64,000 nt of DNA, taken from positions 1 through 64,000 of the forward strand of contig JAJZTQ010000011.1 of assembly GCA_021848825.1 (NCBI GenBank), given 5' to 3'. Made by a program: the position numbers and the translations under genes. Shown in pieces: positions 13,344 to 60,980 of this stretch (its first letter is position 1; each line of letters opens with the position of its first letter). The notes under the pieces were generated by a model. The model saw nothing but the letters and a program-made list of their open reading frames with translations. It ran no database searches and was not told the DNA's origin. The DNA comes from Pseudomonadota bacterium (lineage in GTDB: Bacteria > Pseudomonadota > Gammaproteobacteria > Burkholderiales > JABEVD01).

Positions 13344-13535
13344 ATGAGTCAAGACCTGATCGACATCATCGACCGTGAAGAGCGCGTTTTCAAATCCTTC
13401 CAGGCGGCCATCGAACTGATGGAAGGTAGCCCGTCTCAGGAAGTCCGCGAAGCGCAAACGCTTCTCGCATTGCTGGTCGATGAATATCAACCTTGTCGAG
13501 CCGCCATGCGGCAACAAGTCGAGGCCCGGTCATGA
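13344..13535 (+). CDS. Conserved small protein, 63 aa, paralogue of the ORF at 22674
   Basis: The ATG at 13344 follows GAGGAG. The peptide SQDLIDIIDREERVFKSFQA is predicted all-helical. The 64-aa protein at 22674-22868 has the same DxxDREDRLFRQLSSAI start, a LLxLLxDE core and a CR near the end, so the two are paralogues within the element. The function is unknown. Its stop overlaps the start of the next gene (ATGA). Confidence 0.7.
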   Translation: MSQDLIDIIDREERVFKSFQAAIELMEGSPSQEVREAQTLLALLVDEYQPCRAAMRQQVEARS

Positions 13536-25113: not shown

Positions 25114-26151
25114 CTAACCCAGCATCTTCGCCAAATCTTCAACCTTGGGATGATAATAGCGTTTCAGCATCTGCAAATCCTTGTGACCGGTGATTCTGGC
25201 GAGCATTAGGACATTCGGGATTTTCATGGCTAGACGGCTGGTCGCTTCGTGCCGAAGATCGTGGAAATGCAGATCGCCCAGAAAACCTTTTCTCGGCTTA
25301 TTCTCTGCTTCCTTGCAGTCATCCTCGTACTTCTTCAAAGCTCTGGCAATAGTGCGCGACCAGGACTGCTTGACAGCATTTGTGGACATTGGAAACACCC
25401 TGCCGCCGATTGATCGGGGCATTTCCTTGAGGATGGAAACCGCCTTGGTGGACAGTGGCACGGTTCGGGAATCACCGTTCTTTGTCTTGGGAAGATGGGC
25501 AGAAGGCGCGGAAAGATCGATATTATCCCAAGTCAGGGTGCAAAGCTCACCTTGTCGCATAGCAGTTTCAAGGGCGAATTCGATCATGGGACGAAGCCAC
25601 GGGGTCTGGCAAGCGCCAGTGGCTTCGAACAAGTATTTTTCCTCAAGCGGTTCAATGCGGCGCTCCCTGGCGTTATCCAGTCGAGGACGGGATACCAGCT
25701 TTACAGGGTTATCGTGCAGGTTGATCCCCCATTCACGTCTTGCTTGGTCGAGCACTTGCTGAAACAGCCCGAGCTCCCTATGGACGGTTGCTGCCGCGAC
25801 TTTCTTTAGTCGCGAATCACGGTATGCCGCAAAGTCGCTGGAGGTGAGGCTGGCTGCGGTTTTCTTGGCGATGTCCCTCACGGCCATGGCCTTCAACCGA
25901 ATCGATTCGGATTCGTACCCCCTGTGGGTAGGCGTTACTTCCTGGATGTATCGATCTATGAGTTCTTTGAGCGTTGTCTTCTCCGCTGCTGCTCTGGAAA
26001 CAAAGACTCCTCTGCCGATCTCGGATTCAAGCGTTGCCGCCCAGAGCTCTGCATCAGCTTTATTCTCAAACGTCTTTGTTTGGTCAGGGTAGCCCTTTCT
26101 CCGAACCCTGGCCCGCCATTGGTAATCCCCCCTTTTTTCGATCTGCGCCAT
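25114..26151 (-). CDS. int: Tyrosine site-specific integrase
   Basis: 345 aa, phage-type integrase: N-terminal arm-binding domain (KRGDYQWRARVRRKGYPDQT), SAM-like core-binding domain, and catalytic domain with R (ETAMRQGEL), HxxR (HFHDLRHEA), GH (TGHKD) and the nucleophile Tyr in KRYYHPK. It integrates the element into the 3' half of tRNA-Pro(CGG), whose fragment lies 97 bp from the gene start. The gene is intact. The gap to the att site is AT-rich with short inverted repeats (ATTGGCCCAAT) that could be arm sites or the int promoter. Confidence 0.93.
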   Translation of the reverse strand: MAQIEKRGDYQWRARVRRKGYPDQTKTFENKADAELWAATLESEIGRGVFVSRAAAEKTTLKELIDRYIQEVTPTHRGYESESIRLKAMAVRDIAKKTAASLTSSDFAAYRDSRLKKVAAATVHRELGLFQQVLDQARREWGINLHDNPVKLVSRPRLDNARERRIEPLEEKYLFEATGACQTPWLRPMIEFALETAMRQGELCTLTWDNIDLSAPSAHLPKTKNGDSRTVPLSTKAVSILKEMPRSIGGRVFPMSTNAVKQSWSRTIARALKKYEDDCKEAENKPRKGFLGDLHFHDLRHEATSRLAMKIPNVLMLARITGHKDLQMLKRYYHPKVEDLAKMLG

Positions 26152-26247
26152 ACCGCCTCCAAGTATATTAGCGTTAGATTATTGGCCCAATAATGACCCA
26201 ATGAATGCTAATATAGCTATAATAACGCATAAATACTAGATAGATAA

Positions 26248-57222: not shown

Positions 57223-59106
57223 TCACTTCCCGGAAATGAGGCTGCGATTGACGTTTATCTTGGCCCTGCCCTTGAGTCCCATGAAGTAGTCGGAGAGCTC
57301 TTCTTCCGCAGCCGCGTTTTTCATCTGGGTCTTGACTGCCTGGAGCTCCGGCGCAGAAGGCTCTCCAGCGTCGATCAGCTTCGAGATCCTGACGATGGTA
57401 TAGCCTGTCGGTCCTTCGACGCCGGCATAGAAAGGAAGCTTGGCGACGTCGGCCGACAATACCGCCTTCAGGATGTCCGGGGAAAGCCCCTGCCTTTCAC
57501 GCCTGCTCACATCCACTTCAGGCTGCCACGAAAGGGATGTCTCCCGTCCGGCCTGAAGCTGGACAAGCGTCGATTTTCCCTGCTGCATGGCGGCATCGAG
57601 CGCCTTCTGCTGGACGACCTTCTTCCTGATCTCGTCCGCGACTTCGGCAAGGGGCTTCGTGAAAGCGGGCTTCATGTCGACGACATGGGCCGAGACAAGA
57701 ACATTGGGCGAGACTTCGATGGCCTCGGTATTCCTCTTCTTTTTCATGGAATCATCGGAAAAGACCGCCTTCAGGAGCTTCTTGCTGGAAGGGAATGAAG
57801 GATTGCTGCCCGATTCATCTATCCAGCCGCTCGTCTGAACCTGCAGACCGAATGCATCTGCTGCAGGCTTGAGGCTCGAACTCTGCTCATAGACCATGTT
57901 GCTGAAATTGTCGGCATTTTCGCTGTACTTCTTCCCGGCCTGCTGCTTTCTGATTTCCTGGACGATATCGTCTTTCGCTTCCGCGAAGGTACGCGTCGTT
58001 GCCGGCTTGATCCCATCGAGCCTGATGACGTGAAATCCGAATTCGGAATGCACAGGTTCGCTTATTTCTCCCGGCTTCATGGAAAAGACGGCGTCGTCGA
58101 ACGGCTTGACCATCGTGCCCTGCTTGAAGAACCCGAGATTTCCGCCGTTGGCTGCAGAACCCGGATCTCCTGAATATTTCTTTGCCAGTTCGGCGAACTT
58201 GCCAGGGGATTTTCTCAGCTCAGCGACAATCTTGTCCGCCTTGTCCTTTGCCTCATCGATCTGGGCTTTCGTCGCATCCTTGGCCAAAGGGATCAGGATA
58301 TGGCTCGCGCTCCGCTCTTCGGGAATGCTGAATTCCGATTTGTGCGCATCGTAATACTGTTTCGCCTCGTCAGCGCTCACTGCTATCCCGGACTGAAGCG
58401 TTTCCGGAGAAAACACCACATAATCCACTTTCACCTCTTCCGGAACCTTGAATTCGCCTGAATGATCCTTGTAATACTTCGCCACCTCGTCTTCGCTGAC
58501 CTGCTGCCCCTTGAGATACTGCTCTGGCGTGAAGGAGACCAGGTTCACGACGCGTTTCTGATCGATCATCTTCACGAACTGCATTGCCGATGCCTGTGCA
58601 ACGAAGCCGTCCTGCGCCACTGCCCCCAGCAGCTGCTCCCTTGCGATGTCCTCTCTCACTTCGGATTCGAATCGAACGGCCGTCAGTCCCTGACCTTGCA
58701 GCAGTTTCTGATACCGCTCCTCCGAAAAAGCGCCATCCTTCTGGAAGATGGTCATGGCCCTGATCGCAGAAATCAGCTGATCGTCGGTGACCGCTATGCC
58801 GACCTTCTCGGCATCGTTCGTGAACAACTTTCTCTGGATCAGCCGCTCGAGCACGGCAAGCTTGAACCCGGGGCTGTCCAGCATGGACTGATCCGCACGG
58901 CTGCCCAGCTGTTGTCTCAGGTCCTCCTGCTGCTGCCTCAGCACGAGATCGAATTCGCTCATCGCTATCTTCGCGCCATCCACGCTCGCCGCGTCGTTCG
59001 CGCCGCCGCTCCTGTAAGACTGAATTCCCCAGAACATGAATGTCAGAATGACAAGCCCGAGTATGATTTGAACTATTTTTCTGTTTCTGTCTACGAAATC
59101 GAACAT
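57223..59106 (-). CDS. ppiD: PpiD, membrane-anchored periplasmic folding factor
   Basis: 627 aa. N-terminal membrane anchor (about 12-30, IVQIILGLVILTFMFWGIQS), SurA-like chaperone region (ASVDGAKIAMSEFDLVLRQQ), one parvulin domain (about 265-360; ASHILIPLAKDATKAQIDEA, GGNLGFFKQGTMVKPFDDAV, FGFHVIRLDGI) and a C-terminal region. It works at the Sec translocon exit with YfgM, whose gene is at 36737. The ribosome-binding site is weak. A promoter and an immediate terminator hairpin precede it. Confidence 0.95.
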   Translation of the reverse strand: MFDFVDRNRKIVQIILGLVILTFMFWGIQSYRSGGANDAASVDGAKIAMSEFDLVLRQQQEDLRQQLGSRADQSMLDSPGFKLAVLERLIQRKLFTNDAEKVGIAVTDDQLISAIRAMTIFQKDGAFSEERYQKLLQGQGLTAVRFESEVREDIAREQLLGAVAQDGFVAQASAMQFVKMIDQKRVVNLVSFTPEQYLKGQQVSEDEVAKYYKDHSGEFKVPEEVKVDYVVFSPETLQSGIAVSADEAKQYYDAHKSEFSIPEERSASHILIPLAKDATKAQIDEAKDKADKIVAELRKSPGKFAELAKKYSGDPGSAANGGNLGFFKQGTMVKPFDDAVFSMKPGEISEPVHSEFGFHVIRLDGIKPATTRTFAEAKDDIVQEIRKQQAGKKYSENADNFSNMVYEQSSSLKPAADAFGLQVQTSGWIDESGSNPSFPSSKKLLKAVFSDDSMKKKRNTEAIEVSPNVLVSAHVVDMKPAFTKPLAEVADEIRKKVVQQKALDAAMQQGKSTLVQLQAGRETSLSWQPEVDVSRRERQGLSPDILKAVLSADVAKLPFYAGVEGPTGYTIVRISKLIDAGEPSAPELQAVKTQMKNAAAEEELSDYFMGLKGRAKINVNRSLISGK

Positions 59107-59170: not shown

Positions 59171-59199
59171 ATTATACCTAAAAAATCCGTTATTGACAG
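59171..59199 (-). promoter_or_regulatory. Sigma70-type promoter upstream of ppiD
   Basis: On the minus strand CTGTCA (59199-59194) and a perfect TATAAT (59176-59171) are separated by 17 bp. Transcription would start near 59164 and run into the leader hairpin. Confidence 0.65.
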
Positions 59200-59210
59200 A
59201 CCCAAGAATA

Positions 59211-59242
59211 AAGCCCGTCACCTGGGCAGGTGACGGGCTTTT
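59211..59242 (-). terminator. Terminator behind the tRNA-Asp 3' fragment
   Basis: A 13-bp near-perfect palindrome, AAGCCCGTCACCT-GGG-CAGGTGACGGGCTT. On the minus strand it lies 5 bp past the displaced tRNA-Asp 3' end, so it is probably the original tRNA-Asp terminator. On the plus strand it is followed by TT and could act in both directions. Confidence 0.75.
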
Positions 59243-59247
59243 CCTTA

Positions 59248-59271
59248 TGGCGGAGTGGACGGGACTCGAAC
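59248..59271 (-). other. Displaced tRNA-Asp 3' end (24-bp direct repeat, att-like)
   Basis: TGGCGGAGTGGACGGGACTC plus GAAC is identical to the last 24 bases of the intact tRNA-Asp at 60485-60508, in the same orientation, including CCA. The rest of the tRNA is missing here. This is the signature of integration into a tRNA 3' end. Confidence 0.88.
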
Positions 59272-59307
59272 ACGGGGCGCCGGCCCGAGTGAAGCCGATG
59301 GAATCGA

Positions 59308-60057
59308 TCACGCCGAGCGTCGTCGCACTGCCATCACTCCAAAAAGCCCGATCCCGAACAGCGCCAGACCTGCAGGCTCAGGCACTACGGCACCCGGCCC
59401 TGCCGCGCCAGCATTGCCGGGAAGCACAGCCCACGAGTAGTAATAGCGATTACGGTTCTTGGCGAGCGTGCCCTGAGCGCCATTGAAGGTAGTGAATTCC
59501 CACGCGTACCCGGGATTGGAAGCGTCCTCCGTGCTGGACCAGTACAAGTCGTAAAAGACATTTGTGAACAGGCTGCTCGCTGGAATGACATGCCCTGCCG
59601 TTCCACCCAAAGCTGTATAAAACAACTCCCCCAGCATGCTGTTGGTGCAGTTATAACCGAAACAGCTCTGATCGTAGGTCGTTGGCAGTTCCCAGGTGTT
59701 GTGTCCCAGGTAATCGATGCTGTTGAGATAGCCCATGAAGGCCATCGCGCCCCACCAATCAGATGGACCTCCGCTTGAGTTGAAGTCACTTGCGCTCACA
59801 TTGTAATTGCCAGGGCCGGCATTATCAAAGGAATTGGGCGTATCGTGAATCGTAGGTACTGCAGCGATGATCTGGCTGATCAGATTCGCATTTCCCGCTT
59901 CCATTGTGCCAAGAAGGTTTGCGTCAGACGACCACGTCACGTTCGCCACGTTGTCATATACCAATCCCGGGCCCACGCTGATCAGGCTCGCCCGCGAAAC
60001 TTGCGCACCCAACAAACCCATCGCAAGCATCGCGCCTGCCAAAATCTTCCTCTTCAT
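59308..60057 (-). CDS. PEP-CTERM sorting-domain protein with Lcl/DUF1566-like domain
   Basis: 249 aa with signal peptide (KILAGAMLAMGLLGAQVSRA) and a C-terminal sorting tripartite tail VPEPAGLALFGIGLFGVMAV plus RRRSA. The body (VYDNVANVTWSSDANLL, TWELPTTYDQ, YWSSTEDASNPGYAWEFTTF) resembles the Lcl C-terminal/DUF1566 fold. PEP-CTERM proteins are processed by exosortase and exported together with exopolysaccharide; exosortase genes are not in this window. GGGAG precedes the ATG. It is the sole gene of the tRNA-Asp insertion. Confidence 0.88.
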   Translation of the reverse strand: MKRKILAGAMLAMGLLGAQVSRASLISVGPGLVYDNVANVTWSSDANLLGTMEAGNANLISQIIAAVPTIHDTPNSFDNAGPGNYNVSASDFNSSGGPSDWWGAMAFMGYLNSIDYLGHNTWELPTTYDQSCFGYNCTNSMLGELFYTALGGTAGHVIPASSLFTNVFYDLYWSSTEDASNPGYAWEFTTFNGAQGTLAKNRNRYYYSWAVLPGNAGAAGPGAVVPEPAGLALFGIGLFGVMAVRRRSA

Positions 60058-60425
60058 GTTTTTTCTCCCAAATGGTGAATTGTAAATGCCATTAAAAAAC
60101 GATCAATTCCAAAAAATGCGGACCCAAGTGCCTTATCGGGGCGTTATAGACCGCTCGAACCTGTTAATCGCTATTAGTTTTCACGCATCACTCTACCGCG
60201 TCGCATAGCATGCAATTATCATGCCTCAAGCTTGTCGGTAACGACATAACATTGATTTACTGAGATGTTTTTGATCAGGATAGGCAGATAGCCGGATGGA
60301 CTGACAGGCAGGTGTAAAATATCTCGACAGATATCTTCTCGGGCTCGCAGGACAAAACTTCGTTTGCGAGGCGCGGCCCGCCTAGTGCTTTGGGGGACCG
60401 GATTCACGCCGAAGCGCCGGACAGA
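60058..60425. other. Upstream region of the PEP-CTERM gene
   Basis: About 0.37 kb with no gene. It presumably holds the PEP-CTERM promoter. A 16-bp inverted repeat ATATCT-cgac-AGATAT at 60319-60334 could be a regulator site. No mobile-element ends other than the tRNA-derived repeats are seen. Confidence 0.45.
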
Positions 60426-60473
60426 AAAGAAAAACGCCTTGGGAAGTCCGTACAGAACGGAATCACAAGGCGT
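60426..60473 (-). terminator. Terminator of tRNA-Asp
   Basis: On the minus strand ACGCCTTG pairs with CAAGGCGT with an inner CCGTTC/TACGG hairpin, followed by TTTTTCTTTT, 12 bp past the tRNA 3' end. It lies inside the inserted segment, so the insertion brought its own tRNA terminator. Confidence 0.75.
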
Positions 60474-60484
60474 CCTTCAACAGT

Positions 60485-60561
60485 TGGCGGAGTGGACGGG
60501 ACTCGAACCCGCGACCCCCGGCGTGACAGGCCGGTATTCTAACCGACTGAACTACCACTCC
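60485..60561 (-). tRNA. tRNA-Asp(GTC)
   Basis: 77 nt, CCA encoded. The minus strand starts GGAGTGGTAGTTCAGTCGGT; the anticodon stem-loop CCGGC-CTGTCAC-GCCGG gives anticodon GTC. The T arm is CGGGTTCGAGTCCCG and the acceptor stem GGAGTGG pairs with CCACTCC. All stems are intact. The 3' half is the target of the adjacent insertion. Confidence 0.97.
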
Positions 60562-60749: not shown

Positions 60750-60980
60750 ATGAGAATCACTGCCATCATGCTTTTCGGCATGTTCGCCGCCTCGTCCATC
60801 GACGCGTCCGCCCAGCCGCCAGCCTGGTTTATCGCCAAGCATCCCGAGGTGAAACAGATGGAGAAGAGACAGGAACAACTAGCCGCCAAGGAAAGCGCCA
60901 GGAAGAAGCTGGCTTCCCGGCACGGCAAATCGCACCACACGACGTCCAGTCAATCCGGAAAGGAAACGCAGGGCAGCTGA
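60750..60980 (+). CDS. Small exported protein of unknown function, 76 aa
   Basis: GAGGAG 8 nt before ATG 60750. The signal peptide RITAIMLFGMFAASSIDASA has cleavage after ASA. The mature part is short, very basic and helical (PEVKQMEKRQEQLAAKESAR), ending in a Ser/His-rich tail. Not recognised. It sits alone between tRNA-Asp and tRNA-Val on the opposite strand. Confidence 0.65.
   Translation: MRITAIMLFGMFAASSIDASAQPPAWFIAKHPEVKQMEKRQEQLAAKESARKKLASRHGKSHHTTSSQSGKETQGS

Follow-up and report, generated by a model that had tools for sequence, protein, structure and literature searches.

The locus lies near one end of a 64,000-nucleotide stretch of a Pseudomonadota genome (hereafter the window) and reads, in minus-strand order, lon, hupB, tRNA-Val, tRNA-Asp, a terminator, a PEP-CTERM gene, a 24-bp copy of the tRNA-Asp 3' end, a second terminator and ppiD (Table 1). 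As an earlier note on this DNA had described, the 24-bp repeat (TGGCGGAGTGGACGGGACTCGAAC) is exact, occupying positions 59248-59271 and 60485-60508; the latter site comprises the last 24 bases of the intact tRNA-Asp, from CCA to T-loop, and is the tRNA-side attachment copy. The two copies bound an insertion unit of 1237 bp with one gene inside, and att-like sequence has thus been kept at both ends over exactly 24 bp. Past these bases the two tRNA-Asp ends diverge, with one mismatch followed by two matches. Allowing up to 3 mismatches, a search of the 2.74-Mb genome for further tRNA-Asp 3' copies, as the earlier note had suggested, returned just these two sites; the chance expectation of such a repeat is ~2e-8. 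The G+C content of the insertion is near that of the flanking DNA, giving no distinct compositional signal, and Rfam searches yielded no convincing RNA family at the locus besides tRNA. Between tRNA-Val and tRNA-Asp, a small ORF with a signal-peptide-like start lies at window positions 60750-60980 (+), and a similar ORF occupies the same place in one relative (G003).

Table 1. Features of the tRNA-Asp/ppiD interval, in window coordinates.
Feature	Position	Strand	Basis
Intact tRNA-Asp(gtc)	60485..60561	-	ARAGORN; Rfam RF00005; exact repeat
Terminator (hairpin + T) directly behind intact tRNA-Asp, inside insertion	60430..60474	-	Sequence
Predicted sigma54-like promoter, GG-N10-GC (GGCATGATAATTGC)	60212..60225	-	Motif scan; 168 nt upstream of start codon
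Sole gene of insertion: 249-aa Lcl_C (PF07603) protein with C-terminal PEP-CTERM anchor	59308..60057	-	ORF list, profile searches; own-genome paralog
24-bp copy of tRNA-Asp 3' end (T-loop to CCA), attR-like	59248..59271	-	Exact repeat; comparison with G002 and G005
Terminator (hairpin + T) behind 24-bp copy, taken as original tRNA-Asp terminator	59211..59244	-	Sequence; layout as in G002 and G005
ppiD -10 box (TATAAT), kept on ppiD side of insertion	59171..59176	-	Comparison of ppiD upstream regions
ppiD, conserved gene bounding insertion site	57223..59106	-	Locus comparison

Comparison with relatives revealed the empty site that the earlier note had proposed to look for, in four members of the genus (G002, G003, G005 and G008). 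In G002 and G005, tRNA-Asp is followed by a terminator, the ppiD -10 box and ppiD, with no insert, and in G003 and G008 tRNA-Asp lies directly against ppiD. The distance from CCA to the -10 box is 68 bp in G002 and G005 versus 71 bp from the 24-bp copy of the window, an agreement which argues that the copy beside ppiD marks the original tRNA-Asp end. The layout likewise matches the earlier placement of this copy next to the original tRNA terminator, though the argument rests on position and not on sequence, since the similarity of the 59211-59244 hairpin to the terminator of G002 was not significant in alignment. Downstream of the PEP-CTERM gene, that hairpin is now the nearest terminator.

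The order of tRNA-Asp and ppiD, previously called conserved, is present in G002, G003, G005, G008, G009, G022 and G058 but not in G006, where the two genes are 22.7 kb apart and a polysaccharide biosynthesis cluster fills the gap without a tRNA repeat (G006:C82, 157000-184500; L055, L056). In G001, tRNA-Val is directly followed by other genes. The G006 cluster marks the gap between tRNA-Asp and ppiD as a recurrent insertion point in the genus.

The terminator directly behind the intact tRNA-Asp (60430-60474) shares homology with the tRNA-Asp terminator of G004:C99 (alignment score 60 versus 26.6 +/- 4.3 shuffled, 0/5000), though a different terminator follows tRNA-Asp in G006, a close relative of G004 by ppiD. 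A homologous terminator in G004 and a different one in its close relative fit arrival with an element. The description of this hairpin as a replacement terminator brought in by the inserted DNA is therefore plausible, as judged from the sequences compared.

Within the insertion, Pfam searches (PF00589 included) detected neither a recombinase nor a remnant of one, in agreement with the earlier account of a single PEP-CTERM gene between the repeats and no recombinase. Nor did the 1.2 kb contain a detectable remnant of transfer genes, and the other reading frames tested gave no Pfam match. An integrase remnant was also considered in the 370 bp upstream of the PEP-CTERM gene and rejected, as this segment had no Pfam match; a phage or plasmid origin was rejected given no phage match, one 38% plasmid match and no viral-contig relative. 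That DNA with a single PEP-CTERM gene was inserted site-specifically at tRNA-Asp is well supported: relatives have empty sites, and no recombinase was detected inside the unit.

Elsewhere in the same genome, a 6.6-kb element at tRNA-Pro(ggg) has an intact integrase and a tRNA 3' repeat of at least 20 bp (G000:C13; L162:4453-11158), and an integrase C-terminal fragment lies ~170 bp downstream of tRNA-Pro(cgg) (G000:C9; L164:9957-10364). These two sites, one with an intact integrase element and the other with an integrase fragment, show stages comparable to the route described for CIMEs: integration, decay with att sites retained, and accretion of later elements (PMC5704250). The window itself contains a phage-type integrase ORF at 25117-26178 (-), 33 kb from tRNA-Asp.

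To gauge rarity, occurrences of the exact 24-mer were compared with those of a longer tRNA-Asp pattern across 399 genomes of the order; diverged copies would escape this comparison. Four genomes among those listed had an excess of 24-mers. The extra copies in G196, G264 and G274 were not insertions and came from tRNA genes cut by contig ends; the window's genome held the sole internal lone copy found by exact search among the matches listed. The 399 genomes yielded no autonomous element that uses the tRNA-Asp 3' end, and no integrase using this att, which the earlier note had hoped to trace, was identified.

Homologs of the window gene occur near tRNAs and mobile-element genes. In a tree of thirteen homologs, the window gene grouped with its own-genome paralog, a G004 gene, two G008 genes and a G203 gene (support 100/98). 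The G004 homolog begins ~870 bp after tRNA-Gly and the G008:C13 homolog ~550 bp after tRNA-Leu, both in the same direction as the tRNA; no second att copy was found at either place within the stretches searched. At tRNA-Met in G008:C1 (L144:3289-13528), two accreted elements are bounded by three copies of the 50-bp tRNA 3' half, the repeats being exact at L144:11213-11262 and 96% identical at 13477-13528. Between the first two copies stands an 8-kb element whose tyrosine integrase is intact (PF00589, PF13356); the second interval, a 2.2-kb unit, contains a PEP-CTERM homolog, a HicB-like antitoxin and, beside the last tRNA copy, a C-terminal piece of an integrase (PF00589 at E 4e-5, which falls short of the Pfam cut-off). 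With the window left out, the excess of homologs in proximity to tRNAs gave P ~0.002 to 0.01 in a rough binomial calculation whose distance cut-off was chosen post hoc. In G203, a member of another family, TrbJ (over cut-off) and a VirB1-like transglycosylase accompany the homolog on a 4-kb contig, a context that suggests transfer. Identity between G203 and the window's genome is 75% for Lon versus 68% for the PEP-CTERM protein, so divergence alone is no proof of transfer.

The reading that we favor, with a probability of about 0.75, is that the insertion is a decayed integrative element, att-flanked and CIME-like, whose integrase has been lost. We favor decay because the att-flanked, homologous 2.2-kb unit at tRNA-Met in G008 keeps part of an integrase and borders on an element with an integrase of its own. 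An integrative element, probably equipped with a tyrosine integrase, would have inserted at the tRNA-Asp 3' end. If its attP core was the T-loop-to-CCA segment, integration would therefore have restored a complete tRNA-Asp, now followed by a terminator belonging to the element, while the old 24-bp 3' end stayed on the ppiD side together with the terminator it had before. Loss of the integrase, and of whatever transfer genes there were, may have followed, either through internal deletion or because a neighbouring autonomous element excised from a tandem arrangement. The presumed remnant is one Lcl_C PEP-CTERM cargo gene, with its own putative sigma54-type promoter, between two att half-sites; any mobility left to it would depend on a tRNA-Asp-specific integrase, which could in principle mobilise it. 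Weighing against this reading are the failure to detect an integrase or transfer-gene remnant in the unit or an autonomous parent in the 399 genomes, the undistinctive G+C content, and the absence of a second att copy near the tRNA-Gly and tRNA-Leu homologs within the stretches searched.

The earlier note had instead proposed a minimal non-autonomous tRNA-targeted cassette. Its one-gene, site-specific insertion stands, but movement of the cassette as such, in the form of a 1.2-kb circle with an att core and one cargo gene served by a trans-acting integrase, seems unlikely. The compact layout (att, terminator, promoter, gene, att), the integrity of both att copies over 24 bp and the homologous genes near other tRNAs would all suit such a unit. 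However, no second copy of it is present, the own-genome paralog sharing the coding region only; the integrase fragment in the homologous unit at tRNA-Met in G008 points to decay; and the 399 genomes of the order yielded no tRNA-Asp-specific integrase. A decayed integrative element is the simpler reading.

Alternatively, foreign DNA bearing a tRNA-Asp 3' end could have been captured by homologous or illegitimate recombination, with no integrase involved. We think this improbable: the interval from tRNA-Val through tRNA-Asp to ppiD does behave as a recurrent breakpoint, as the repeat-free cluster in G006 and the different genes after tRNA-Val in G001 illustrate, but 24 bp is a short homology for RecA, the duplicated segment is one that integrases commonly use as att, and other tRNAs in the genus harbour site-specific elements. 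Erosion of a tandem tRNA-Asp duplicate, its second copy reduced to the 3' end, has very little to recommend it. Tandem tRNA-Asp genes are found in several families of the order, but each genus relative in which tRNA-Asp is detectable has a single one, and identity between the window's copies ends after 24 bp.

Read as a decayed element, the insertion belongs with known att-flanked remnants and not in a new class. It resembles CIMEs (PMC5704250) in its attL and attR flanks, its position at a tRNA 3' end and its lack of integration or transfer genes, its content being one Lcl_C/PEP-CTERM ORF. The likeness extends to tRNA-Met in G008, where a related unit is accreted beside an integrase-bearing element. 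CIMEs, however, are described as decayed ICEs or IMEs, whereas here one gene occupies 1.2 kb and no parent element was found. Tycheposons and tRNA-anchored flexible genomic islands also consist of accessory DNA bounded by a tRNA, with fGI-2 marked by repeats of a tRNA gene's last 20 bp, but the tycheposons there have a tyrosine recombinase and a described length of 4-200 kbp (PMC10872708); the window insertion has neither, lacking any PF00589 match. In the attR category of tRNA gene fragments, an isolated tRNA 3' end past a complete tRNA gene is likewise an integration scar, though the integrations there are ~9-23 kb (PMC9897764).

Att-flanked decayed elements are already known; what is new at this locus is the extreme reduction to one gene and a PEP-CTERM cargo that recurs, and we consider the recurrence of this cargo at tRNA sites of the genus the most interesting part. 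With empty sites in relatives, the locus offers a clean example of how far a tRNA-integrated element may shrink while still delivering a gene. Within one uncultured betaproteobacterial genus, a single clade of PEP-CTERM surface proteins keeps appearing at sites of tRNAs and mobile elements, which points to a link not found in the literature searched. Should the att sites remain functional, exchange of surface proteins would be directly testable. More speculatively, Lcl_C-type PEP-CTERM genes might spread in the genus within tiny tRNA-targeted units, holding as little as a single gene, with co-resident elements supplying the integrases in trans; tRNA loci would then be places where surface-protein repertoires are exchanged in the manner of integron cassettes. 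We regard this as a long shot. To our knowledge, tRNA-end duplication is not a feature of integron gene cassettes.

The product of the window gene combines a lectin-like Lcl_C domain (45.1 bits; cut-off 34.9) with a PEP-CTERM motif (PF07589, 26.1 bits, cut-off 20.7; TIGR02595, 22.2, cut-off 16), and its N-terminus, read by eye, is signal-peptide-like. The genome carries three exosortases (PF09721 matches over cut-off). Motif and exosortases together suggest the surface or biofilm role ascribed to the protein earlier, a putative function based on sequence. The gene may be expressed from the sigma54-like promoter, and a stricter form of this motif, TGGC-N8-TGC, lies upstream of 5 of the 12 other homologs, at 67-149 nt. 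In Aquincola, the PEP-CTERM gene pepA is RpoN-dependent, with a -24/-12 promoter mapped experimentally (PMC9850573). The two genes are alike in pairing a PEP-CTERM protein with a -24/-12 GG/GC promoter, predicted by motif in the window, but the match of the NCBIfam PepA model to the window protein is confined to the C-terminal part and scores far below cut-off. The own-genome paralog on C30, a 20-kb contig with no tRNA genes, is 72% identical to the window protein; a repeated mobile unit in this genome was rejected, as the two genes share coding sequence but not the rest of the 1.2-kb unit. In G008:C54 (8551-12119; L146), four Lcl_C PEP-CTERM genes ~50% identical to the window protein stand in tandem.
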